Origin: Methanoregula sp. PtaU1.Bin051
GTDB taxonomy: Archaea > Halobacteriota > Methanomicrobia > Methanomicrobiales > Methanospirillaceae
DNA length: 64,000 bases
Assembly (NCBI GenBank): GCA_002067895.1
Contig: MVRE01000003.1
Coordinates: 62,001-126,000 of the forward strand
Direction of reading: 5' to 3'
Part shown: in pieces, positions 13,933-61,173 of the stretch
How the letters are laid out: every line of letters begins with the position of its first letter
How positions within the stretch are numbered: position 1 is the first letter of the stretch
Made by a program: the position numbers and the translations under genes
Notes under the pieces: generated by a model
Told to the model about the DNA's origin: nothing
The model's input: only the letters and a program-made list of their open reading frames with translations
Database searches by the model: none

Positions 13933-14418
13933 CTATTTTTTCGTCACCGTGACCGGGTCGATTGTCGCATCGATCATCAGGTCGAACGAGAATGTATCCA
14001 GCCAGCCGGCCTTCTCGAACATGCTCATGAAGCAGACACCGATCACCTTCACGTTGCCGTGTTTTTTGATCAGCGCCTGCACCTGCTCCTTCTTCACCGG
14101 CACGTCCGGCATCGCAAGCCCGCCCATTATCACGAGGGCTTTCGGGTGCAGCGCAGCCGGCCCGCCGGAGACCTGCATGCCGATATCCGGGACGTTTACG
14201 ATCTTCTTCGCCTTGGTCTCATCGAGAAGCGGGGTGAAGACCTGCTCGGCCTTCAGCCCCCGGATCGCGACCGCGAGCAGCTCGACAAACGGCGTGCAGG
14301 TTCCTGCGCAGCCATAGTACGCGATCTGGTCGCCTTCAGAAAGACCGATGGACTGGCAGTATTCCTTGAACGGGCGCAGGATGCCGGGGACGCTCTTGTA
14401 TACTTCCTTCTGTGCCAT
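13933..14418 (-). CDS. Conserved methanogen protein, DUF2124-like
   Basis: A 161-aa soluble protein. The segment IAYYGCAGTCTPFVELLA and the later ALVIMGGLAMPDVPV match my memory of the DUF2124 family, found mainly in methanogens, with an alternating beta/alpha pattern like a Rossmann-type fold. Several Cys are conserved-looking (YYGCAGTC, VIGVCFMSMFEKAGW). No Shine-Dalgarno is visible; an A/T box about 28 bases upstream suggests a leaderless mRNA. Function is not known. Confidence 0.7.
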   Translation of the reverse strand: MAQKEVYKSVPGILRPFKEYCQSIGLSEGDQIAYYGCAGTCTPFVELLAVAIRGLKAEQVFTPLLDETKAKKIVNVPDIGMQVSGGPAALHPKALVIMGGLAMPDVPVKKEQVQALIKKHGNVKVIGVCFMSMFEKAGWLDTFSFDLMIDATIDPVTVTKK

Positions 14419-14495
14419 ACAACGCAGTTTTCCCGCCGGGATGATAATAATTGTTACCTGATGCGGCTGTTATTAAAAAAAAGGATGCGATCCTG

Positions 14496-14789
14496 TCAGA
14501 GCCACTCGCGGTCAATCACCCGGATCGTTGCACCGGTTACCTCCCGGAGGATCAGCGATACCGCGAGGAGCGCCGAGAGGCTTGCGATCAGGAAGAGACC
14601 TGAACCGATTGGTTCCGGGATTGGGATGACACTGAGCCGGAAGAGATCGAAGACCACATACAGGGTAAAGGTGAGCGCAATCAGCCAGCCGTATGCCTTC
14701 CTGCCCAATGCCGCGATCCGGATCGCCAGAATGATAACGGCAGTTTCGATGATGACAGAGATGGCCTGAATACCAACACTTATTTCCAT
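14496..14789 (-). CDS. Small membrane protein, three predicted helices
   Basis: A 97-aa hydrophobic protein with helices at about residues 5-28, 33-53 and 62-82, ending in a charged tail (RVIDREWL). Nothing marks a catalytic site. It stands alone, with DUF2124 downstream on the same strand and a divergent gene upstream. I do not recognise the family. Confidence 0.6.
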   Translation of the reverse strand: MEISVGIQAISVIIETAVIILAIRIAALGRKAYGWLIALTFTLYVVFDLFRLSVIPIPEPIGSGLFLIASLSALLAVSLILREVTGATIRVIDREWL

Positions 14790-14903
14790 GGTCTCCGGTT
14801 TGCCGCTCAGAGTAAAAGCCCATTGGATCGCACTGCAAAAAGATACCCGGATAATATCTCGTCACCTATTAGTGCCGGGAAGCAAAAAAGGGGGGATGGG
14901 ATT

Positions 14904-15407
14904 ATGACAGGCGAAGATTCCGGGAGAGATTGGACTGCGGGGGCGCTTGCCGATGCAGCAAAGGACTGGATCGCGATCGACGGCCTCTGGTTCCAGGCGG
15001 TCGAGCAGGCGTACGGGATGGATGTTGCCGTCGCGCTGGACTGCAAAGTGTGGGAGCAGTTTGCGGCAATCGAGGCGGGGCGGATCAAAAAGCGGCTCAA
15101 ATTGCCGGAAGCCGGCGGGCTTTCCTCGCTTGATGCCGCACTCCGGGCGCGCCTCGTCCATAACGTGAATACCTTCACAATCGAGCGACCTGACAGCCAT
15201 ACACTCGTCTTTACGATCACCGGTTGCCGCGTCCAGTCCGCCCGCCAACGTAAAAAAATGGCACTATTCCCGTGCCGGCCGGTCGGGCTTACGGAATTCC
15301 CGGCCTTTGCCCGGGCAATCGATCCCCGCATCAGGACTGAATGCCTCTCCTGCCCGCCGGATACATTGCCGGGCGTACCCTACTGCCGCTGGAGGTTCAC
15401 GATGTGA
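14904..15407 (+). CDS. Conserved hypothetical protein, possibly DUF6125-type
   Basis: A 167-aa soluble protein. The N-terminal half contains DGLWFQAVEQAYGMDVAVAL then KVWEQFAAIEAGRIKKRL, which resembles the DUF6125 family ('Leu-Trp-Phe-x-x-Val-Glu...Trp-Glu-x-Phe'). The C-terminal half has paired cysteines (ITGCRVQSAR, FPCRP, ECLSCPPD, YCRW), suggesting a bound metal or Fe-S cluster (inference). Start at ATG 14904 follows GGGGAT; the frame is open back to 14823 but those codons look non-coding. Function unknown. Confidence 0.65.
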   Translation: MTGEDSGRDWTAGALADAAKDWIAIDGLWFQAVEQAYGMDVAVALDCKVWEQFAAIEAGRIKKRLKLPEAGGLSSLDAALRARLVHNVNTFTIERPDSHTLVFTITGCRVQSARQRKKMALFPCRPVGLTEFPAFARAIDPRIRTECLSCPPDTLPGVPYCRWRFTM

Positions 15408-15753
15408 TCCTGCAATGGTAAAGTAACCGGTTCCTGTAAAAAAATCCTCTTTTACCGCCGCAGCATCCACTTTTTCCTAGAGTTTTCCGGAACCTGCCGA
15501 AATTGCGGTTTTACCGCAAATAAACTACCGGCAGGTTTATACAACCATAGTCAGTTCATCCAAGAAGAGGGGGCTGCCTGAGGAGAGACTCAAACGGAAC
15601 AGGTGTTGCAGACAACTGTGGGATTCATTTTTTTACCCTATCGTCTCTCCGCAAGGCCCTGTCTCTCCACAGGCTCCGGGCCCGCGGCTCTGGATCTTTT
15701 AATCTGTCCGGACATCACAAGTACCGTACCTGAAAATACTGGTGACTGCAACC
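15408..15753. other. Non-coding interval upstream of the STAS gene
   Basis: About 345 bases with no convincing gene. A TATA-like GGTTTATACAACC lies near 15534, and GCGGTTTTACCGC near 15506 is a short palindrome. If the TATA element is the promoter, the STAS leader is close to 200 bases long. Confidence 0.45.
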
Positions 15754-16098
15754 ATGGCGCTCTGCACTGTACAAAACGAGGGAGGGATCGCTCTTGTCGT
15801 CATGCCCCTCCAGATAGACCATGTCACTTCGACGGGACTGGAAGCTGAGCTGAAGGAGATCATGGCAAAAGTACCGAAAGCAATCCTCTGCGATTTCTCG
15901 CAGACCAAGTATATCTCGAGCTCCGGGCTCCGTGTGATCCTTCTCATCGCTAAGCTGAACAAAGAAACCGGAGGAACATTCGGCCTGTACTCCCTTTCGC
16001 CATTCGTTGCGCACATCTTCGGTATATCGGGGTTCTCGAAGATCATGCCGATCTACGAGTCCAAGGATGCGGCAGTCAAAGCCGTCTCGGGCAAGTAG
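15754..16098 (+). CDS. STAS-domain protein (anti-sigma-factor antagonist-like)
   Basis: A 114-aa single STAS domain. ILCDFSQTKYISSSGLRVIL carries the conserved 'D-S---I-SSGL' signature with the serine that is phosphorylated in SpoIIAA-type proteins. Archaea have no sigma factors, so it presumably acts in a phospho-switch with an unseen kinase or phosphatase (inference). Start at ATG 15754 has GGTGA 8 bases upstream; an in-frame GTG at 15742 is possible. It heads a stretch with a small membrane protein, a TPR protein and a Ras-like GTPase. A T-run after the stop (about 16150-16160) may terminate it. Confidence 0.85.
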   Translation: MALCTVQNEGGIALVVMPLQIDHVTSTGLEAELKEIMAKVPKAILCDFSQTKYISSSGLRVILLIAKLNKETGGTFGLYSLSPFVAHIFGISGFSKIMPIYESKDAAVKAVSGK

Positions 16099-16293
16099 AC
16101 GAGAGTGTTGCGGCCGAGCGGCAGTGCGGCAATTTCCTGCCGCAGCCATTTTTTTTTTTTTGGATATCAACCGTTAACCGTCGGGTTATATTTTTTTTCC
16201 CTGTCGCTGAGGGGTTCTCACCAGAGAGGATCCGTTCCCCGCACCTTCCCGGAACATTTTCCGGAGGGATTAAGTTGTAAGAGACCGATCCTC

Positions 16294-16512
16294 ATGAGAG
16301 ACATGTCAGATGAATGGGTCACGAAAGTGACCCCTGCAAGGATTACCGTTGCCCTTATCACCGGCTTGATGCTCGGGTTCCTGCTTCAGGTAGTCCTCCT
16401 GATCTTCAACCAGTGGCTGCTCGCCCCGCTGATGTTTTTACTTGTCGGGGGCGGCGGGATCGTTGTCTTTGTTTTCTGGATGCAGCGGCAGCCGGACCTT
16501 ATCCCGCAATAA
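16294..16512 (+). CDS. Small membrane protein
   Basis: About 72 aa with two helices: ITVALITGLMLGFLLQVVLL and a second one beginning LLAPLMFLLVGGGGIVVFVF. The polar N-terminus reads MSDEWVTKVTP; start may be ATG 16294 or 16303. A TATA-like GGTTATATTTT lies near 16185. Function unknown. The convergent TPR gene begins its 3' end 37 bases downstream. Confidence 0.6.
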   Translation: MRDMSDEWVTKVTPARITVALITGLMLGFLLQVVLLIFNQWLLAPLMFLLVGGGGIVVFVFWMQRQPDLIPQ

Positions 16513-16549
16513 CAGCAAGGTACCGGTATCATGCGTAATCCCATGGCAC

Positions 16550-17296
16550 TCAGCGGACCATCGGGTCTGTGCCCCCCGTGAGCTCCCGCGCTTTTGTAAA
16601 AGCCTGCATCGCAAGGTTGTCCCGGCCTGTCCTGCTGTAGCAGATCCCGAGATTGCTCCACGCGGTCGCGTCGCCGGGATCGATCGCGAGCGCTTCCTGC
16701 AACACCTCTTCAGCGTCAGCATAATGCTTGAGACGGGCGAGCACCACACCCTTGTTGGTGAGCACGATTGCAACCCCCGGGTTCATCGCGAGGCACTCGT
16801 TGTAGCAGGCGAGCGCCTCATCAAGCTCGCCGAGATCGGCGAGGGAGACCCCTTTGTTGTAGAGCGCCTTAGGGTATTTCGGCCGGATCCGGAGCGTCTC
16901 GTCAAAACATTTGATCGCGCCAATCCGGTCGCCCTGCTGGTACAGTGCATTGCCTTTCATGAAATACGCCTCGGCATGATCCGGCTTTTTGGAGATAGCC
17001 GCGTCGAAACAGGGTACAGCCTCTGCATTTTGCGCGAGCCGGAAGAGGGCGAGCCCCCGTATGAAGTGGGCGTCTGCCATCTGCGGGTCAATTTTTAACG
17101 CCTGGTCGCAGCAGACGATCGCTTCATGGAAGAGGCCGAGGCGGTCGAGGCTCGCTGCAAGGGCGACAAACGCATCCGCGTTGCCCGGCTCAAGGGCAAG
17201 AATCTGCTCGAACAAAGGGATTGCCTCGGCGTACCGCCCAGCGCAGACGTAGGCGCTGCCGGAACAATACCGCCTGCGGATCTCTTCCCTGTCCAT
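16550..17296 (-). CDS. Tetratricopeptide repeat protein
   Basis: A 248-aa protein made almost wholly of about seven 34-residue TPR units; recurring 'A---F--AL-I-P-----W-N-G' patterns include CFDETLRIRPKYPKALYNKG and ALAIDPGDATAWSNLGICYS. No signal peptide or catalytic motif, so it is probably a cytoplasmic protein-interaction scaffold. Start at ATG 17296 (MDREEIRRRY) has AGGGG at good distance; the frame is open to 17377 but those residues are unlikely. The GTPase gene lies upstream on the same strand. Confidence 0.88.
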   Translation of the reverse strand: MDREEIRRRYCSGSAYVCAGRYAEAIPLFEQILALEPGNADAFVALAASLDRLGLFHEAIVCCDQALKIDPQMADAHFIRGLALFRLAQNAEAVPCFDAAISKKPDHAEAYFMKGNALYQQGDRIGAIKCFDETLRIRPKYPKALYNKGVSLADLGELDEALACYNECLAMNPGVAIVLTNKGVVLARLKHYADAEEVLQEALAIDPGDATAWSNLGICYSRTGRDNLAMQAFTKARELTGGTDPMVR

Positions 17297-17416
17297 GAGA
17301 GGCATTCCCCTGCCGTTTGTAGAGATTGATCTGGGTTTGCAGTAACTAATAAAACGTCCGGTTCCGATTGTTGCCAAGTAATGGCGGACAATCTTTTTTT
17401 CAAAGGCCGGGGCCGG

Positions 17417-17929
17417 TCAGCCTATGCGATGGTTATTCCCATGCCGCCCGGGGGGCAGCGTTGCGACGAACTCCTTAAGCACGGCCTCGCACTCCGGGCG
17501 TTTCCTTGCCGATGCCTGTACTACTCTGGCAGAGCTGATTTTTTCCTTCAACTGATCCGGCTGCGCACCGATTTCTTCACACTTGTTGAGCACGACCATA
17601 AAGGGGATCTTCGCTGCTGAGAGGGAGTCATGGAGGTGGGCGACGAACTCGTCATACTGGCCGGTCGCATCGACGAGCAGGATCGCCCCGTCCATGCCCC
17701 GGCCGATCACCTTGCGGGCGAACTCGAACCGCTCCTGCCCTGGTGTCCCGAACAGGTATACCTGCCGCCCGCCGACCTCAATCTTCCCGTAATCGAGCGC
17801 GATCGTCGTCGTCCCACCGGTGCACGGGGCCTCGATGTGCTTTGAGCCCGGATCGAGCGTTTTGATGAGTGTGGTCTTCCCCGCACCAAAGGCCCCGAAT
17901 ACGACGATCTTGAGCCGGTCGGCTTCCAT
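17417..17929 (-). CDS. Ras-like small GTPase (MglA/Rab-type)
   Basis: A 170-aa P-loop GTPase. G1 is GAFGAGKT near residue 13, G3 is GTPGQERF where most relatives have D-T-x-G-Q, and G4 is VVLNKCE (N-K-x-D position occupied by C-E). Start set at ATG 17929 (MEADRLKIVVFG); upstream codons in frame overlap hairpin DNA and look non-coding. Prokaryotic relatives are regulated by partners such as roadblock proteins, none of which is seen here. The substitution of Gly for Asp in G3 is worth noting, since that Asp contacts the Mg site. Confidence 0.85.
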   Translation of the reverse strand: MEADRLKIVVFGAFGAGKTTLIKTLDPGSKHIEAPCTGGTTTIALDYGKIEVGGRQVYLFGTPGQERFEFARKVIGRGMDGAILLVDATGQYDEFVAHLHDSLSAAKIPFMVVLNKCEEIGAQPDQLKEKISSARVVQASARKRPECEAVLKEFVATLPPGRHGNNHRIG

Positions 17930-18072
17930 TGGTATGCATGGGCGGGAAAGATCGATGAGGGTTTCGGTTGGGCAGGAAGGAAAAATGATTTTTTTCGAAT
18001 ATGGAGGGCTGCGGGAGGATTTAATAAAATATTTTACAGAACGCTCTAGGGGGCCGCGCCTTCGCAGTCGAA

Positions 18073-18174
18073 GAATTCTCGCGAATTCGATCGAAGACTG
18101 GTAGTCTTCTCCTGTCTCAAGTCTGATGACTTTCGACATTCTCCAATCAATCCTCGCTGATGCGATGATTGATT
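18073..18174. repeat. Array of hairpins, TGAT-loop (minus-strand RTCA) type
   Basis: Four stem-loops in series: GAATTC/GAATTC with loop TCGC (18073-18088); GAAGACT/AGTCTTC with loop GGT (18093-18109); AAGTC/GACTT with loop TGAT (18119-18132); and AATCAATC...CGC / GCG...GATTGATT with loop TGAT (18145-18174). TGAT is the reverse complement of ATCA, so the last two match the 10.9 kb family read on the minus strand. They lie upstream of the minus-strand GTPase gene. Confidence 0.6.
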
Positions 18175-18855
18175 CCCCGCTGCGTGGGCCCTACCGTCGG
18201 AGAAGTAGATGGCCGGAAGTACCATTGATCTCCAGCTCCCCATGAGTGCCGGAAAACAGTGGATCCGGATTGAGGGGCGGACTCTGAGGTTTGGATCCGG
18301 ACCCCTTATTTCCCCGTTTCTGGCGATCTGCAGCCTGACTTTGAGAACGATCCTGTCTCCAATTAGCGCTATTTGATGATATTTTGGGGCATGAAACAGC
18401 CCCTGATAGCATTAAGGGGGGCAGAAATAGACAGATCCGAAAACAATATTGTCGGTTTTTGATGAATTATTGTCAAAAAGGCCATTTTTTAGGGGCCGGG
18501 AACAGACAGTGAACAATTGCCACCGTCGGAGAATTCAGGAAAGGGAAGATCCTGATTCCCGGTGGCCAGGCCAGATCACCTGGAAAGTGCCGAATCCAAA
18601 ACAGGGGTTTTTCCCTATTCAACGTATCCCAGGTCACCCGGAAAAGTATCATCCGCTGAAACAGGTTTATACTGGCCGGTTTATCTCTAAGGAAATCCCG
18701 CTGGTTCTCAGTTCCGGCTGATTAAAACAATAATTGGGGAAACTTGTCCCAAAAACCCCAGAAACAGGCCGGTCCGGAAGTTCCGGTTTTCCTGAAAATA
18801 CGCCCAAATTGAGCCCGGATTACAATTTTTATACATTGGAAGGGGTGAGGTCCTA
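18175..18855. other. Non-coding interval with no convincing gene
   Basis: About 680 bases. The longest frame (18449-18721, plus strand) encodes a Pro/Arg/His-rich 90-residue sequence with no recognisable fold and begins inside an A/T-rich stretch without a ribosome-binding site. GGATCCGGA words recur (near 18260 and 18292). A TATA-like TTTTTATACATT near 18824-18835 lies about 25 bases before the TTG at 18856. It may be decayed sequence at the edge of the accessory island. Confidence 0.5.
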
Positions 18856-19116
18856 TTGAGCGCCTGTTATACCGGGATTTCCCACGATGGCTGGAATGGG
18901 GTATCCTTTACGTGTGACGCTGCCGTGATCCGGGCACAGGAATTTTTTGTAGAAATCCGGTTTTACGGGGAGATTTTTACTCTAACCTTTCCTGATGCCG
19001 CAGGCAAAGGGAAAGTTATGAGAAGATTGCGCCAGCGATCTTCGAGTCACGAAAAGGTTGCGCCAGCAATCCTTGAGTGCGAGAAGATCACATCAGTGAT
19101 CTTCGAGTGGCAATAA
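18856..19116 (+). CDS. Doubtful 86-aa ORF running through a repeat copy
   Basis: TTG start preceded by GGGGTGAGG and a TATA-like box 25 bases upstream, so the transcription and translation signals look real. The first 30 residues (MSACYTGISHDGWNG...) are unfamiliar. From about residue 33 onward the codons coincide with the dispersed repeat that also occurs at 19.97 kb, where the same bases are not in an equivalent frame. This may be a small gene whose 3' half was replaced by the repeat, or a chance frame. Confidence 0.25.
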   Translation: MSACYTGISHDGWNGVSFTCDAAVIRAQEFFVEIRFYGEIFTLTFPDAAGKGKVMRRLRQRSSSHEKVAPAILECEKITSVIFEWQ

Positions 19117-19135
19117 ATTTTTGATGCGGCGCGTG
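18953..19135 (+). repeat. Dispersed repeat copy A (three GAAGA hairpins)
   Basis: Shares with copy B (19976-20095) the words AAATCCGGTTTTAC, then CCTTTCCTGATGCCGCAGGC, then GTTA...AGAAGATTGC and a final ATGCGGCGCG. Copy A holds three stem-loops: GAAGATTGC/GCGATCTTC with loop GCCA (19022-19043), AAGGTTGC/GCAATCCTT with loop GCCA (19054-19074, one bulge), and GAAGATCAC/GTGATCTTC with loop ATCA (19083-19104). An additional imperfect stem AACCTTTCC/GGGAAAGTT lies just before them. Confidence 0.7.
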
Positions 19136-19237
19136 ATCCAAAATCATGTTCATATTAACCGTGCCCCGGTACTGTCAATGCCTTAATATTCCAAACCGCT
19201 TATTGATCTGGTAACGGAAATTCCCGTGATCCGGTCT

Positions 19238-19531
19238 ATGAAAAAAATCACTACAATCAAAAAAATCCTTCAGGATCACAAGGCAGCCATCCGCGACCGG
19301 TATAACGTCAGCAGGATCGGCATCTTCGGATCGTATGTCAGGGGGGATACCCACCGGACAAGCGACGTTGACGTACTTGTCGAGTTCTCCGAACCAATAA
19401 GCCTCATCCAGCTGGTCTCGCTTGAAAATTATCTGACGGATCTCATCGGGATCAAGGTCGACGTCGTCCCCCGGGAAGACATCCGCAGCGAGATTAAGGA
19501 CTCTATCCTCCGTGAAGCCGTATACGTATGA
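19238..19531 (+). CDS. mntA: MntA-like nucleotidyltransferase (minimal NTase antitoxin)
   Basis: A 97-aa MNT-family nucleotidyltransferase. [20 protein letters not shown] shows the G-S-x(10)-D-x-D active site intact, with the third acidic residue probably in KVDVVPRED. In characterised MNT/HEPN pairs the enzyme AMPylates a tyrosine of the HEPN toxin. Start at ATG 19238 (GTG 19226 also in frame). It overlaps hepT by ATGA, as typical of two-gene toxin-antitoxin operons. Flanked on both sides by copies of the dispersed repeat. Confidence 0.9.
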
Positions 19532-19893
19532 GAGAGAAGCAGCGCAATATCCGGATTTTTTTAAAGGACATCATCGATAATATCCGCAGGATCCAACGGT
19601 TCACGCAGGAGATCACGTACGAAGAATTCCATGCCGATGAGAAAACATTGTTCGCTTCGATCCAGTGTATCGAGATCATCGGCGAGGCCGCAAAGCACAT
19701 CCCGAAGTCCCTGCGATCCCGGCATCCCGAAGTTCCCTGGAACGATATGGCGGGCATGCGGGACAAACTGATCCACGCGTATTTCGGGACGGATCCCATC
19801 CGTGTCTGGAAAGCAGCAAAGGAGGACCTGCCCATAATGCTGCCCCATATACAGAAGGCCCTCACCGAGCTTGAACAGGACAACAAACCATAA
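19528..19893 (+). CDS. hepT: HepT-like HEPN toxin (DUF86)
   Basis: A 121-aa all-helical HEPN protein. The RNase motif R-x(4)-H is in [14 protein letters not shown], and the tyrosine two residues after the His is the site AMPylated by MntA in studied systems. [15 protein letters not shown] is another DUF86 signature. It begins within the last codon of mntA. An inverted repeat follows the stop at 19901-19925. Confidence 0.92.
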
Positions 19894-19900
19894 GGAAAAA

Positions 19901-19925
19901 ATCCGGCCATTTTACGCGGCCGGAT
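19901..19925 (+). terminator. Hairpin after hepT
   Basis: ATCCGGCC (19901-19908) and GGCCGGAT (19918-19925) form a perfect 8-bp GC-rich stem 8 bases after the hepT stop codon, a likely 3' end of the module. Confidence 0.55.
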
Positions 19926-19975
19926 TATTCCGGAATGTGGTGCACTCGATCCATGAGCGCGTACGGGTTGGTAAA

Positions 19976-20190
19976 AATCCGGTTTTACTGGGAGATTTTG
20001 CACGAACCTTTCCTGATGCCGCAGGCGAAGGGAAGGTTAGAGAAGATTGCATCAGCAATCTTCGAATGCAATGTGTTTTAAATGCGGCGCGGTGGTACAG
20101 AAATCAGAAAAGATAAAATCGGAAGTATTTTCAGATTGCATTCTGATAATCGACGAATTGAATCAATACTCTCAGCAAGGAAAACGAGGT
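19976..20190 (+). repeat. Dispersed repeat copy B with leader-like extension
   Basis: The first part matches copy A: AAATCCGGTTTTAC, CCTTTCCTGATGCCGCAGGC, then a single perfect hairpin GAAGATTGC/GCAATCTTC with loop ATCA (20042-20063) and ATGCGGCGCG. An imperfect stem AACCTTTCC/GGGAAGGTT precedes it. The second part, from about 20100 (AGAAAAGATAAAATCGGAAG ... GATAATCGAC), recurs at 21190-21272 upstream of another small gene. It ends just before the small lipoprotein gene at 20198 and may carry its promoter. Confidence 0.65.
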
Positions 20191-20197
20191 TGAGGAT

Positions 20198-20461
20198 ATG
20201 AAAAAGATCGCAGTTACCGCAATAGTAGTGACGCTTATCTGTGTGATAATAATTGCAGGATGCACAAGTCAAGAACCGACATTAACAAATTCTCCTCTAA
20301 AGGACGACGTAACAATAATGACCACTACATCAACGCCGACGGTGAATGTGACCCCCATGTACACTAATGAAAGGTGGGCATCTAATGAAAGGTGGGCATG
20401 CGAAACTAAGGAGAATGTAGAGCGAGCAGCTGAAGAAGGGATGAAATGGTTAGCATTATAA
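20198..20461 (+). CDS. Small lipoprotein, array member 1
   Basis: An 87-aa precursor: basic N-terminus, hydrophobic core, then lipobox IIAGC with Cys at residue 24, so the mature form (about 64 aa) is a lipid-anchored extracellular peptide. After the Cys comes SQEPTLTNSPLKDDV and a Thr/Pro stretch STPTVNVTP also found in the next two genes. The codons for NERWAS are an 18-base tandem duplication. GAGGTTGAGG precedes the ATG. Composition is A/T-rich compared with housekeeping genes. Function unknown. Confidence 0.7.
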   Translation: MKKIAVTAIVVTLICVIIIAGCTSQEPTLTNSPLKDDVTIMTTTSTPTVNVTPMYTNERWASNERWACETKENVERAAEEGMKWLAL

Positions 20462-20529
20462 CTCTTGCTTAGATATTCGGCAAATTGAGACGATATACTC
20501 AATCAGGTTGATAAAAAACGAGGTGAAGT

Positions 20530-20769
20530 ATGGAAAGAAAACCAATTATAATCATTGCGATAATTATCATCGCGATCTTGGTACTCCTGCTTGTTGTTAT
20601 CTCTTTTCCTCCAAGGGAAGATGTTAAATTCCAGACACCCACACCAACACCAACTGTGAACGTAACTCCAACGAAGTGTACTGGTGAGGCATGGGCGTGC
20701 GCCCAGATGGAGGCGGCCCAAAAGGGGGCGGACAGGATCAACAAGGGAATTGATTATCAGGGAAAATAG
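20530..20769 (+). CDS. Small membrane-anchored protein, array member 2
   Basis: A 79-aa protein with an Ile/Leu-only N-terminal helix (PIIIIAIIIIAILVLLLVVI), no lipobox Cys, then REDVKFQTPTPTPTVNVTPT. The Thr/Pro/Asn segment is shared with members 1 and 3, so it is a paralogue whose lipoprotein signal has become, or replaced, a signal anchor. GAGGTGA lies at normal distance before the ATG. The upstream leader shares GGCAAATTGAGA...ACTCAATCAG with the leader of the gene at 21312. Confidence 0.65.
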   Translation: MERKPIIIIAIIIIAILVLLLVVISFPPREDVKFQTPTPTPTVNVTPTKCTGEAWACAQMEAAQKGADRINKGIDYQGK

Positions 20770-20835
20770 GGGGACAAACACAAAGTGTTGCAACGAGACC
20801 TGCGATCAGGAAACTATGAAAATGAGGTGAAGGAC

Positions 20836-21066
20836 GTGAAAAAGATCGTATTTGGTGTCATAATTATGATGCTCATCTGTGTGATGAGCATTGCAGGATG
20901 CATTAGCCAAGAACCGACGACAAAATACTCTCCTCCAAAGGAAGATGTAATGATAAAGACCCCCACACCAATGCCAACTGTGAACGTGAGCCCAACGCGC
21001 ACTGGGGAATATGACGATTTGGTTTATTCCGTTTTGGAGGAAAGCAAAAAAATAAGAGGGACTTAA
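20836..21066 (+). CDS. Small lipoprotein, array member 3
   Basis: A 76-aa precursor, GTG start with GAGGTGA upstream. The signal peptide reads VKKIVFGVIIMMLICVMSIA, lipobox SIAGC, then SQEPTTKYSPPKEDVMIKTP and PTPMPTVNVSPT. It aligns over most of its length with member 1 and through the Thr/Pro region with member 2. The C-terminus is charged and unrelated to the others. An in-frame TTG at 20785 would add 17 residues with no signal-peptide logic and is rejected. Confidence 0.68.
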   Translation: MKKIVFGVIIMMLICVMSIAGCISQEPTTKYSPPKEDVMIKTPTPMPTVNVSPTRTGEYDDLVYSVLEESKKIRGT

Positions 21067-21107
21067 GGTTAGTCTCTTAAAATTACTTATAATTGAAAAA
21101 AATCGCA

Positions 21108-21272
21108 AGCGAGTGGAAGGTTATGAGAAGATTGCATCAGCAATCTTCGAATGCAATAGAAACGGGCTGCGGCATGGTGACGCAAAGATCAGAAAAAATA
21201 AAATCGAAAACATTTTCAGTTCGTGCTCCGATAATCGACAAATTGAGATAATACGCTCAATCAGAAATGCGG
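21108..21272 (+). repeat. Dispersed repeat copy C
   Basis: Contains GTGGAAGGTTATGAGAAG followed by the same perfect hairpin as copy B, GAAGATTGC/GCAATCTTC with loop ATCA (21127-21148), then CGAATGCAAT. The second half, AGATCAGAAAAAATAAAATC through GATAATCGACAAATTGAGA, parallels the extension of copy B. It precedes the gene at 21312 as copy B precedes that at 20198. Confidence 0.65.
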
Positions 21273-21311
21273 GAAAACAAAAATCTGCTAATGATGTGGT
21301 TAGAGGCAATG

Positions 21312-21563
21312 ATGAGAAAGAAAATACTGCTTGTGGTGATTGCTGCTATGCTGCTTGTAGCATCAGTATATGCTGTGTCTTCGCAAGACACGGTCGATCG
21401 AGCTATAAAACATGCAGATGATGAAGCTTCACAGAAGACGGTTGATCGAGCAATGGAAAGTGCGAACTCCGAATCCTCACAAAAAGCCCCTTTAGAGTCG
21501 GTTGGAATCGTAATTGGAATTGGTTCAGCTGTCGCCATTAACAGACTTCGAAAAAGGCTGTAG
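21312..21563 (+). CDS. Small secreted protein with P(L/I)ES-hydrophobic-basic tail, member 1
   Basis: An 83-aa precursor: signal peptide (MRKKILLVVIAAMLLVASVYA), then two copies of a short unit, DTVDRAIKHADDEAS and KTVDRAMESANSESS, then APLESVGIVIGIGSAVAIN and the basic end RLRKRL. The order motif, short hydrophobic stretch, Arg/Lys tail resembles sorting signals read by archaeosortases, though this motif is not one I know. Start at ATG 21312 with GAGG 5 bases upstream; in-frame ATGs at 21309 and 21267 exist. Confidence 0.62.
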   Translation: MRKKILLVVIAAMLLVASVYAVSSQDTVDRAIKHADDEASQKTVDRAMESANSESSQKAPLESVGIVIGIGSAVAINRLRKRL

Positions 21564-21621
21564 CAACAAGATTCGTAATCAGAAGGGCACGAAAAGAAAA
21601 TGTTAGGCAAGTAGGTGAATT

Positions 21622-21909
21622 ATGAAATTTACGACTATTGTACTGATCTTTGCATTGCTTGTTGCGCTAACTATTATAACGGTAAGTGCGACCGCATCGA
21701 ATGACGGCTCTGTACAAAATGTTATCGATCAAAGGGCTGCAGAAAGAAGATCTGGAAACAACACCGGTGAAGGCTCTGTAGAACACGTTGTCGATCAAAG
21801 AGCCGCAGAGAGAGCTGGAAATCAACAGTCACCAATTGAATCTGCTGTGATTGTTGGCGGGCTGGTAATTGCAGCAAAAAACGCGTATAAATTTAGAAAG
21901 CAGCGTTGA
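21622..21909 (+). CDS. Small secreted protein with P(L/I)ES-hydrophobic-basic tail, member 2
   Basis: A 95-aa precursor with signal peptide (MKFTTIVLIFALLVALTIIT...), two repeats SVQNVIDQRAAERRSGN and SVEHVVDQRAAERAGN, then SPIESAVIVGGLVIAA and the basic end KFRKQR. It has the same layout as the gene at 21312 though sequence identity outside the tail is low; 'V-D-A' is common to both repeat types. AGGTGA precedes the ATG. The fusA operon, convergent, ends 40 bases downstream. Confidence 0.65.
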   Translation: MKFTTIVLIFALLVALTIITVSATASNDGSVQNVIDQRAAERRSGNNTGEGSVEHVVDQRAAERAGNQQSPIESAVIVGGLVIAAKNAYKFRKQR

Positions 21910-21949
21910 AACTAGATCAGCAAACCTGACGATAAAAAATATTATAAAT

Positions 21950-24145
21950 TTACCCCGCGAGATAATCGCTCGGGGTCGGCATCTGCTCTTTCAGACCCTT
22001 CCGCTTCCGGATCGCGATCACGACATCCTTGACCATATTGTTGGGCACGAGCTCGAAGCCCGAGAACTCGGTGTTCCACATGGCCCGGCCCTCGGTTGCG
22101 GACCGGATGTCGCCGGCAAACCCGAAGAGTTCGGCGACCGGTGCCTTGCCGACGACCGTGATCGTGTCGCCCTCGCTCTGCATGTCGAAGACCTGGCCGC
22201 GCCGGCCCTGGATCTGGGAGGTTGCCGCGCCCATCTGCTCCATGGGGACTGTGATCTGGATCTTCTGGACGGGCTCGAGAAGCGAATCGCCGGCTAACAG
22301 CATGCCGCCCTTGATCGCAGCCCTGACCGCCGGGATGACCTGCGCCGGGCCGCGGTGGATCGCGTCCTCATGCAGCTTGACGTCGACAAGCCGCATTTTC
22401 AGGTTCTGGACCGGCTCGTCCGCGAGCGGGCCGCCCGCGAGGGCCTCGTGGATGCCCTCGATGATAAGCTCCATCGTCTCGTTGAGGTACTGGATACCTT
22501 TGGTCATATCGATGAGTATATTGGTGCCCTTGATGTCCTTGACGTTCTTGGCTTCGTCCTTGTCCATACCCGCCTTGATCAGTACGTCGCGGCGCTCGAG
22601 GTTCTGCTGGTTCATCGAGACCTCGCCACTCTTGATCAGGTTCACGATCTCGTCCGGCAGCGGCTCGAGGTCGAAGTAGAACCGGTTGTGCCGGTTCGGG
22701 GACTTGCCTTCCACAGACTCGACTTTACCGGTAATCGTCTCGCGGTACACCACGATCGGTTCCGAGGTGACGATCTCGACACCCTTGTCGCGCTTGATAC
22801 GGCCGGTGATGATCTCAAGGTGCAGCTCGCCCATCCCCGAAATCAGGTGCTCACCGGTCTCTTCGTTGATAGCAATACCAAGTGTCGGGTCCTCCTTAGC
22901 TACCTGCCGGAGCACCTCTACGAGCTTGGGCAGGTCCTTCATGTTCTTCGCTTCCACGGCAACAGTCATGACCGGTTCCGAGTAGTGCTTGAGAGACTCG
23001 AACGGCGTAACTTCCAGGAGCGTTGAAACGGTCGAACCCACGATCGCGTCCTTGAGACCGGTGACCGCGGCAATGTTGCCCGCGACAATCTCTTCGACCT
23101 CGACCCGCTTCGGCCCCATGAAGATGCCGACCTGTTGCAGCCGGTTCTCCTTCTTTGCCGTTCCCATCACGTACAGGCTGTCGCCCCGCTTGAGGCTTCC
23201 CGAGAAGAGACGCCCGGTCGCGACCTCCCCTGCGTGCGGGTCGAAAGAGATATCGGTCACCATCAGTGCGACCGGACCTTTAGGGTCGCAGGCGAGCATG
23301 GCTTTGCCTTCCTTGGACTCCTTGTCCCCGTGCCAGATAACGTTGACCCGGCGCGGCTGGGCATCGAGCGGGTCAGGGAGGTGGTGCACGACCATGTCGA
23401 GCACGACCTCGGAGAGCGGGCTCTTCTTGGCGAGATACTTCATGTCGCCCTCGCGACATTTCTGGTACACCTCCTTGAACGAGATCCCGCTCTTCTTCAT
23501 GAAAGGCACCGAGATCGCCCAATTGTATAGGGCCGAACCGAACGCCACGGTTCCCTGCGCCGCGTCCAGCTTCCAGCCCTTGTTGTAAGCCTCCTCGTTC
23601 ATCCCCTTGATCAGCTTGTTCACCTTGTCGATGACCTTCCCAAGCCGGATCTGCATCTCCATCTCGTCCACTTTCAGCTCGTTGATGAGCCGGTCGACCT
23701 TGTTGATGAAGAGGACCGGGCGCACCTGCTCCTTCAGTGCCTGCCGCAGCACCGTCTCGGTCTGAGGCATTGTACCCTCGACCGCATCGACCAGCACAAC
23801 CGCACCGTCAACCGCACGCATCGCGCGGGTGACGTCCCCGCCGAAATCGACGTGGCCGGGCGTGTCGATCATGTTGATGAGATACTCCTGCCCCTCATAC
23901 TCGTGCACCATCGAGACGTTGCTCGCGTCGATCGTGATGCCGCGGGCCTGCTCCTCCTCGTCGGAGTCCATGAAGAGCTGCTTGCCTGCAAGCTCCTCCG
24001 AGATGATGCCGGCGCCTGCGAGCAGGTTGTCGGACAGGGTGGTCTTCCCGTGATCGATATGGGCTACGATACCGATGTTCCGAATGTGCTTCGGATCCTT
24101 CATAAGCTCGACTACGCGCTCTACCGTTTTTTTGCCGCGGGTCAT
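21950..24145 (-). CDS. fusA: Translation elongation factor aEF-2
   Basis: A 731-aa ribosomal translocase. GTPase motifs are [27 protein letters not shown] and NKVDRLINE. The C-terminal domain contains [16 protein letters not shown], where the His in 'AIHRG' is the one converted to diphthamide in archaea. Start at ATG 24145 ([11 protein letters not shown]) has GGTG 6 bases upstream; an in-frame GTG at 24157 is part of that element. Third gene of rps12-rps7-fusA; no tuf or rps10 follows, since the repeat-rich island begins after the stop. Confidence 0.97.
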
Positions 24146-24168
24146 AAAAAACACCAAAAAAGGTATGG

Positions 24169-24759
24169 TTATCGGGCGGACTTGGCAATCCGCTCGCGTT
24201 CTTCCTTCTTGTTCACCGAGTAAGCCTTCACATCGCCTTTTGAAGCAGCAATGAGCTCGTCAGCGAGGATTGCGCTTGCACTCTTCTTGCTCGAGCTCGA
24301 TGCCTTCAGGGTTGCCTCTGCAATGAACCCGATCGCAGTGTTGACCCTGCGTAAGGGGGCAGTATCGACAGACTTGGGGACATTGATGCCGCCGTATTTC
24401 AGCCGGACGGTCTCTTCCCGGGGACCGGTGTTAGCGATCGCGTCGACCAGCACTTGGATCGGGTTCTGTTTCGTCTTTTTGTGGATGATATCGAACGCGT
24501 CGCTCACGATCCGGGTTGCAAGCTGCTTCTTGCCGGTATTGTTCTCGGACTGCATCAGCTTGTTGATGAGCCGCTCGACGATCATCATGTTGCCTTTGGA
24601 AAATTCCTGCTGGGTGTATTTCCCGCAGGTGTGGGGGATGATCTGGGGGGTGAGGTTGACGTACCGAACGAGTGCCGGGTCGTTGATCTTAACTTCCCCG
24701 GCATCCCAGCGGTTGAAGAGAAGTTTTTTCGCTTCAACCTTGCTCTCCGCTTCCGCCAT
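24169..24759 (-). CDS. rps7: 30S ribosomal protein S7
   Basis: A 196-aa S7. Characteristic stretches are [40 protein letters not shown] and [20 protein letters not shown]. It binds the 3' major domain of 16S rRNA and contacts the E-site. Start at ATG 24759 has GGTGAT 6 bases upstream; two other ATGs directly before it are in frame. It is separated from rps12 by 5 bases. Confidence 0.96.
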
Positions 24760-24764
24760 CATGA

Positions 24765-25193
24765 TCACCTGCGCGGTTTCTCCTTCCTGCCGATGACCAT
24801 CTCGTGGAGGCTGACGTTGTTCACCTTTGTGACGACGTACCGTACGCCGGGAATGTCGCCCATCGAACGGCCGAGCCGGCCGCCGATACCTTCGATCTCG
24901 ACTTCATCATGCTCATCGATGAAATTGATCGCGCCGTCTCCGACCGCGAACGCAGTAACCTGCCTTCCGTTCTTAATCAGCTGCACGCGAACACATTTCC
25001 GGATCGCGGAATTCGGCTGTTTTGCCTCGACACCAATCTTCTCCAGTACAATCCCGCGCGCCTGAGGAGCCCCTTCTAGGGGATCCGATTTCACATCGAG
25101 ATTGAGTTCCCTGCGGGCATAGTTCTTGTCGGCCCACCGGAACTTATGAGAGTCCCGAACCAGTTTTCTGGCTGCAAATTTACCCTGTCCCAT
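24765..25193 (-). CDS. rps12: 30S ribosomal protein S12
   Basis: A 142-aa S12 (S23e type). Signature [20 protein letters not shown] carries the decoding-centre loop, with [18 protein letters not shown] after it. GAGG lies 7 bases before the ATG. A TATA box AGTATATATCT near 25246-25257 on the minus strand is well placed to drive the rps12-rps7-fusA transcript. Confidence 0.97.
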
Positions 25194-25245
25194 TCAATGT
25201 CCTCATATTATTGTTTAGTATCGTGATCAATACGCCACGCTTTGA

Positions 25246-25340
25246 GATATATACTAGCGCGATGAACCGATTTATAAATTGTGGCAACCCTTCTGCCAGC
25301 CGGTAACTATTGGCGCGCACTCATAATAATATTATATCAT
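25246..25340. promoter_or_regulatory. Divergent promoters: rps12 operon (minus) and queD operon (plus)
   Basis: Minus strand: AGTATATATCT at about 25246-25257, 55 to 60 bases from the rps12 start. Plus strand: AATATTATATCAT at 25328-25340, centred about 27 bases before the queD ATG (25361), which fits a leaderless queD mRNA; a second box TTTATAAATT lies near 25270-25280. Assignments rest on spacing. Confidence 0.55.
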
Positions 25341-25360
25341 GCAACGGCAGAGTACTACCG

Positions 25361-25792
25361 ATGATTACCGGGCTTTACAAGGAAGTGCAGTTCGACGCAA
25401 GCCACCGTCTCCTCCACTATAAGGGAAAGTGTGCGAACCTACACGGCCACCGCTGGAAGGCCGAAGTCTGGATGGAAGGGGAGCCTGACGAAAAAACCGG
25501 CATCCTTATCGACTACAATACGATCAAGGAAATTGTCTGCCGGTTCGATCACCAGATTATCCTCAACGAGGCCGATCCGATGATCGCGTGCATCAACAAG
25601 TACCAGCAGGTGATCGTAACGCCCGGCGAGCCCACGAGCGAGCTGCTCGCAGTCCTGATAAAAAACGACCTACAGGAATACTGCCGCGCGCAGAACCTCT
25701 CCGCAAAGGTTGTGAAGGTCCGGATCTGGGAGTCGCCGAACTGTTACGCCGAGGTCGCCGGCAGTACATTACCGTCACGGGCGTGCGGATGA
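25361..25792 (+). CDS. queD: 6-carboxytetrahydropterin synthase (QueD), archaeosine/preQ0 pathway
   Basis: A 143-aa PTPS/QueD-family protein. Zinc-binding histidines appear in FDASHRLLHY and NLHGHRWKAEV; CRFDHQIILNE supplies the catalytic His/Asp region; and RIWESPNCYAEV the substrate-binding Glu. In archaea it makes 6-carboxytetrahydropterin on the way to preQ0, which is inserted as archaeosine at position 15 of tRNA. Start ATG 25361; queE overlaps its stop by ATGA. Confidence 0.92.
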   Translation: MITGLYKEVQFDASHRLLHYKGKCANLHGHRWKAEVWMEGEPDEKTGILIDYNTIKEIVCRFDHQIILNEADPMIACINKYQQVIVTPGEPTSELLAVLIKNDLQEYCRAQNLSAKVVKVRIWESPNCYAEVAGSTLPSRACG

Positions 25793-26397
25793 GAATCAGC
25801 GAGATCTTTTATAGCATCCAGGGCGAGGGGAGGAACCAGGGGGCGCCGGCGCTCTTCATCCGTCTCGCCGGTTGCAACCTGCACTGCCGCTGGTGCGACA
25901 CGGAGTACGCTCTTACGGGCGGCGAGGAGATGAGCGCAGATGGTATCCTTGCCGAGGTTTCGCGTGCAAACCCCCGGCTGGTCTGTATCACGGGCGGCGA
26001 GCCGCTCCTGCAGACGGATGCACTCATCCCGGTCCTCAAAGAACTCCATAAAAGGGGGATTGCCATCGAGATCGAGACCAACGGTACGCTTGACTTCGCA
26101 AGCCTCCAGCCATACGCCACGATCTGCATGGACGTGAAGTGCCCGTCATCGGGGGAGGAAAGCGACCTGTCCCTTCTGTCCAAGATCCGGAAGGAGGACT
26201 CAGTGAAGTTCGTTGTCAGTGGTGAGGACGACTGCCGGTACGCACGGGAGGTCGTGAGTGTGCACCCGGTCAAAGGACAGGTCTTCTTCTCGCCGGTCTG
26301 GGGTGCGGATACCGCACCGATTGTCCGGTACATTATCAGGAACGATTTGCCGGTCCGGTTCCAGCTCCAGCTCCACAAAATTGTCGGTGTGAAATGA
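25789..26397 (+). CDS. queE: 7-carboxy-7-deazaguanine synthase (QueE)
   Basis: A 202-aa radical SAM enzyme making the 7-deazapurine ring from carboxytetrahydropterin. The cluster motif is [12 protein letters not shown] (C-x3-C-x2-C), preceded by [19 protein letters not shown]; the SAM-binding ITGGEPLLQ follows. Start at ATG 25789 inside the end of queD. Overlap with both neighbours (ATGA at each side) implies one tightly coupled queDEC transcript. Confidence 0.94.
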
Positions 26398-61007: not shown

Positions 61008-61173
61008 TCATCATCGACATTTCTGCTTTTTTCTCTTCGTTTTTTCCGATATCCGCCAAACTTCTGCACGTCCCATTCACCTTGGATATAAGGAACAGCA
61101 AGGCTGTGAATTGTCCCGTAATTAATCCGATTTTTTCTCGGTATGGCATTTTCTCGGTATGGCATTGAGAGGA

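Follow-up and report, generated by a model that had tools for sequence, protein, structure and literature searches.

The 64 kb window (the whole stretch of DNA analysed here) carries five consecutive small genes that, in the account we favor, probably specify a lineage-restricted set of small cell-envelope proteins, made up of two families and expanded through recent tandem duplication within an AT-rich insertion (Table 1). An earlier reading of the letters alone (the sequence-only reading) had called five adjacent genes of 76–95 aa here, proposing homologue searches, a synteny comparison and dN/dS among the paralogues as checks; all five of its frames were found.

Table 1. Features of the AT-rich insertion and of the small-gene array, in window coordinates
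Feature	Position	Strand	Description
AT-rich insertion, about 3.95 kb	18000-21945 (edges approximate)	.	between small GTPase gene and EF-2
Dispersed intergenic repeat copy	18946-19146	+	three hairpin units at 19020-19108, GAAGATTGC..CAGCGATCTTC; 100 bp at 87% to 19968-20065
MntA-like nucleotidyltransferase antitoxin	19238-19531	+	PF01909 E=6.6e-18; GSX10DXD present; under NCBIfam MntA cut-off
HepT-like RNase toxin	19528-19893	+	PF01934 E=3.5e-28; RX4HXY (RDKLIHAY) present; under NCBIfam HepT cut-off
Dispersed repeat, full copy, two stem-loops	19900-20092	+	193 bp at 90% identity to G000:C8:9578-9770
Leader of member 1	20083-20197	+	duplicated before member 4, partly before member 2
Member 1	20198-20461	+	87 aa, ATG; predicted lipobox signal peptide (IAGC), T/P linker PTVNVTP, C-terminal amphipathic helix with 6-residue tandem repeat
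Member 2	20530-20769	+	79 aa, ATG; predicted N-terminal membrane anchor without lipobox, linker PTVNVTP, C-terminal helix
Member 3	20836-21066	+	76 aa, GTG start; predicted lipobox signal peptide (IAGC), linker PTVNVSP, short C-terminal helix
Second hairpin and leader copy	21104-21264	+	upstream of member 4
Member 4	21312-21563	+	83 aa, ATG; predicted signal peptide, two 16-residue helical repeats (TVDRA...), PLES, C-terminal hydrophobic segment, basic tail
Member 5	21622-21909	+	95 aa, ATG; predicted signal peptide, two 22-residue repeats (VxDQRAAER), PIES, C-terminal hydrophobic segment, basic tail

An insertion absent from four congeners holds the array

The gap between EF-2 and the small GTPase gene is 96–106 bp in four congeners and about 4 kb here, and remnants of the congeners' short gap can still be aligned at the insertion edges. 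GC content is 0.40–0.51 within the insertion and 0.54–0.60 in the flanks. No integrase, transposase, immunity gene or maturation enzyme was recognised among the insertion ORFs. The uninterrupted EF-2/GTPase arrangement is kept in sister species, and the array would offer a clear case of small envelope genes arising and duplicating in one archaeal lineage. The picture previously drawn of local duplication and fast divergence, in a repeat island beside toxin–antitoxin genes, is supported.

The congeners (L056, L057, L058, L059) carry, adjoining the GTPase gene, a gene for a cyclophilin-like lipoprotein that is missing at window positions 16550–18139; a search with only the first 60 residues of this protein returned one weak match elsewhere in the genome, such that loss of the gene is unproven.

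The small frames are probably translated

Antisense ORFs of similar or greater length overlap members 2–4, so that ORF length alone is no proof of coding. A Shine–Dalgarno (SD) match of 4–7 bases stands upstream of all five starts (GAGGTGA for members 2 and 3, AGGTGA for member 5, five matching bases for member 1 and GAGG for member 4), as the sequence-only reading had noted. Its assignment of signal sequences to every member holds insofar as an N-terminal hydrophobic segment is present in 5/5; member 2 is without a clear cleavage site and reads as a bare membrane anchor. A strict filter (70–110 aa, a 15-residue stretch near the start with mean Kyte–Doolittle hydropathy of 2 or more, SD of at least 5) applied to both strands of the window passes four of the five array members and no other ORF; all five members pass once the SD condition is removed. 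Among 1000 dinucleotide shuffles of the array there were 0 matches with the SD condition and a mean of 0.005 without it. With a looser filter (50–120 aa, SD of at least 4), 44 matches were obtained in 444 kb sampled from part of the array contig and from sister-genome stretches, the array accounting for five within 1.7 kb; the one other cluster in this sample (L109, 3552–6774) looks like a conserved membrane-complex operon. The small ORFs at 20198–21909 are probably real genes.

Substitutions between the duplicated copies point the same way. Members 1 and 3 differ with pS 0.38 and pN 0.22, the internal repeat of member 4 with pS 0.75 and pN 0.21, and that of member 5 with pS 0.39 and pN 0.12; pooling these three comparisons gives pS 0.45 against pN 0.20 (Fisher p=0.0003), with 32 of the 67 differences at codon position 3 (p=0.01). 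Taken by itself, the comparison of members 1 and 3 fails to distinguish the annotated frame from one shifted frame, which scores alike. The internal duplications all preserve the frame (18 bases in member 1, at 20364–20399; 48 bases, or 16 codons, in member 4; 66 bases, or 22 codons, in member 5), and here too the earlier description of an 18-base tandem repeat and of duplicated repeats in members 4 and 5 was accurate. The excess of synonymous over nonsynonymous changes between copies argues that the frames are probably translated, with their sequence under loose constraint only, and together with the SD sites it is consistent with the expression that had been thought probable.

Two paralogue groups with different architectures

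Judged by layout, the array is two paralogue groups (members 1–3 and 4–5), not a single family. We considered a common origin for the two; hhalign aligns their signal peptides only (18.8% probability), and shared ancestry is therefore unsupported.

Identity to member 1 in the alignment is 43% for member 2 and 50% for member 3 (whose DNA matches that of member 1 at 75% identity over 176–186 bp), and the three have in common a signal or anchor, an acidic stretch, a Thr/Pro linker containing PTVNV(T/S)P and a divergent tail. A C-terminal helix is less clearly common to them than the signal/anchor and linker: the tail of member 1 is modelled as a helix, at low overall confidence (structure models of array proteins gave mean pLDDT values of 59 and 63, both low), and the tails of members 1 and 2 show a sizeable hydrophobic moment. 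These two members also have E-x-WAC in common, past the linker. The T-to-S change in the linker of member 3 leaves the N-X-T/S sequon intact. As the sequence-only reading had it, members 1 and 3 combine an N-terminal signal with a lipobox and its invariant cysteine (IAGC after the hydrophobic core), which member 2 does not. Signal peptides with a lipobox are frequent in some euryarchaea, and Sec is the predicted lipoprotein route in non-halophilic euryarchaea (PMC2945643). Members 1 and 3 resemble euryarchaeal lipobox lipoproteins in having a short start with positive charge, a hydrophobic core and the IAGC lipobox; the array members are much shorter, with no recognisable domain, and in member 2 the lipobox was either lost or never present.

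At the DNA level, the genome has exactly three occurrences of PTVNV(T/S)P, one in each of members 1–3. In two genomes of another genus of the order (G050 and G055), large surface proteins (L087 and L096) contain PTVNVTP as long tandem linkers, with runs of PTVNVTPT, an N-X-T sequon per unit and, in some proteins, fasciclin-like domains. Members 1–3 resemble such surface proteins with Thr/Pro linkers, fasciclin-like or otherwise, from related genera in their sequon-bearing PTVNV(T/S)P unit and predicted export; the larger proteins have many tandem units and large globular domains, whereas members 1–3 have one unit and a short predicted helix. The N-terminal module of member 1 gives weak matches to many larger ORFs in nearly every related genome, and the similarity of members 1–3 beyond this genome is, on these comparisons, a generic signal-plus-linker likeness to larger surface ORFs only.

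Members 4 and 5, at 27% identity, are built alike: each has a signal peptide followed by two short repeats, then P(L/I)ES, a hydrophobic segment and a basic tail. Their ends, a hydrophobic segment followed by a basic tail, are like those of PGF-CTERM archaeosortase substrates, but they have no PGF, and P(L/I)ES precedes the hydrophobic segment instead. The genome encodes one archaeosortase/exosortase-family protein and a PGF-CTERM protein; TIGR04126 (PGF-CTERM) matches four places in the genome at E<=1, one of them over the cut-off and none in the array, and an NCBIfam scan of members 4 and 5 gave no CTERM match. We set aside an archaeosortase route for these two proteins, as their C-termini have no PGF motif and do not match the PGF-CTERM model.

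The array is probably restricted to one lineage

No homologue of the array was found in 60 relatives, elsewhere in the array's own genome, or in GTDB contigs, viral contigs, phages, plasmids or PDB sequences, and a two-row profile of members 4 and 5 returned no relative at E<=0.001 in 232 genomes of the order (the class-level search covered the same 232 genomes). Three matches to members 4 and 5 at E 0.001–0.006, in genus g21, were partial, fell in frames of 302–888 codons and in one case contained an internal stop; we attribute them to chance. Family libraries gave nothing over cut-off for members 1–5 and only weak matches elsewhere. The homologue search thus came back empty outside this genome, and there is no cross-species conservation. 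The sequence-only reading had held that frames not conserved in relatives, coupled with a lack of transcripts or peptides, would count against the genes; on the first of these points, the whole insertion is indeed absent from sister species, but we read this as lineage restriction. The array is best taken as lineage-restricted rather than spurious because of the combined SD, signal-peptide and substitution evidence.

A model for anchoring and display

The frames, SD sites, signals, paralogy and insertion are visible in the DNA; expression, export, anchoring, topology and glycosylation are predicted. Members 1 and 3 would undergo Sec export and then lipid anchoring at the lipobox cysteine, with the Thr/Pro linker and its N-X-T/S sequon (a putative glycosylation site) holding a short C-terminal helix off the membrane. 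Member 2 would display its helix equivalently on a linker, held by a membrane anchor that stays uncleaved. After export, members 4 and 5 would be retained by the C-terminal hydrophobic segment and basic tail, leaving two short helical repeats exposed. The role is most likely that of a dispensable envelope accessory with loosely constrained sequence, any specific function being only putative. Genes as short as these may be missed by automatic annotation and, if expressed, would be useful for studying the origin of new secreted microproteins and the switch between lipid and membrane-helix anchoring among paralogues.

Alternative explanations and the neighboring MntA-HepT pair

The small frames could instead be decaying copies, no longer functional, of the N-terminal module with which larger surface lipoproteins begin (signal peptide plus Thr/Pro linker), as the weak matches of the member 1 module to larger ORFs, the use of PTVNVTP elsewhere as a linker of large surface proteins, and a divergence between members 1 and 3 (75%) on par with that of the non-coding leaders (77%) would all allow. 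Five intact frames with SD sites, the E-x-WAC shared by members 1 and 2 beyond the linker, the different and complete architecture of members 4 and 5, and the pooled synonymous excess make this unlikely in our judgement. Still less probable are spurious frames within a non-coding repeat region: the want of homologues and the overlapping antisense ORFs would fit, but 0/1000 shuffles pass the strict filter, and both the SD sites and the codon-position bias argue for coding. A viral remnant encoding Rz1-type spanin-like lysis lipoproteins is suggested by members 1 and 3, which match Rz-like spanins weakly (best E=0.0014; PF17531 E=0.0026), yet the PF17531 score of 18.1 bits falls short of the Pfam cut-off of 25, the matches cover signal peptide, lipobox and linker only, and no holin, endolysin or other viral or lysis gene was recognised among the insertion ORFs. 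Archaea of the host's group have no outer membrane, which would leave outer-membrane spanins without a target and further counts against this reading; we give it almost no weight.

The neighboring toxin–antitoxin genes raise the question of a link to conflict. GSX10DXD and RX4HXY are the signature motifs of MntA and HepT (PMC7641770); the former is present in the PF01909 protein and the latter in the adjacent PF01934 protein, such that the pair at 19238–19893 is by motif a complete two-gene MntA-HepT type VII module, although both proteins score below NCBIfam's stricter equivalog cut-offs. The two genes are adjacent and overlapping; the array proteins are unrelated to the pair. Mobile or conflict-islet cargo, in which the array would supply small secreted effectors or peptides with immunity or maintenance tied to MntA-HepT, draws on the complete motifs within the insertion, on repeat copies flanking the pair (18946–19045 and 19968–20065, 87% alike), on the fast divergence of the paralogues and on a match of the MNT protein to PADLOC candidate family PDC-S09. 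We nonetheless consider it distinctly improbable, given that no gene for mobility, immunity or maturation was recognised in the insertion, that defence, phage, plasmid and viral collections gave nothing over cut-off for members 1–5 and no link to conflict, and that in studied pairs HepT is neutralised by its own MntA (PMC7641770). The conflict locus or small-peptide system put forward in the sequence-only reading accordingly found no counterpart in the family and defence libraries or the phage, plasmid and viral collections searched, its one basis being proximity to the toxin–antitoxin pair. We place very little credence in the broader idea that the five proteins jointly form an undescribed archaeal surface-peptide system, for example in contact-dependent interference or signalling, with lipid- and membrane-anchored variants kept by MntA-HepT.

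Dispersed repeats and duplicated leaders

A repeat bearing the hairpin GAAGATTGCATCAGCAATCTTC occurs in several copies in the insertion; the hairpin pattern is present five times in this genome and in 0/60 relatives. The dispersed repeat measures about 190 bp and has two stem-loops, its window copies lying within 18946–21152; an Rfam scan of window positions 14000–26000 gave no match. The full copy on another contig (G000:C8:9578–9770, L075) has a cation-efflux-like gene on one side and small unknown ORFs on the other, with no array genes. The leader of member 1, hairpin included, matches 21104–21259 at 77% over 156 bp, and a 44 bp piece of it lies before member 2 at 20463–20506. Since copies of both hairpin and leader precede members 1 and 4, and a fragment of the leader precedes member 2, two transcription units (members 1–3 and 4–5) appear plausible.

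The leaders of members 2 and 4 each contain a perfect inverted repeat, TTGAG-N8-CTCAA (20485–20502 and 21243–21260), that is degraded before member 1. As the two copies are inherited from one sequence and the third is degraded, we do not count it as an operator; it is possibly regulatory, or possibly a mere duplication. Besides the repeat in member 1, the window's only other tandem repeat is a perfect 16-base unit in 2.1 copies at 61133–61166 (TTTTCTCGGTATGGCA).
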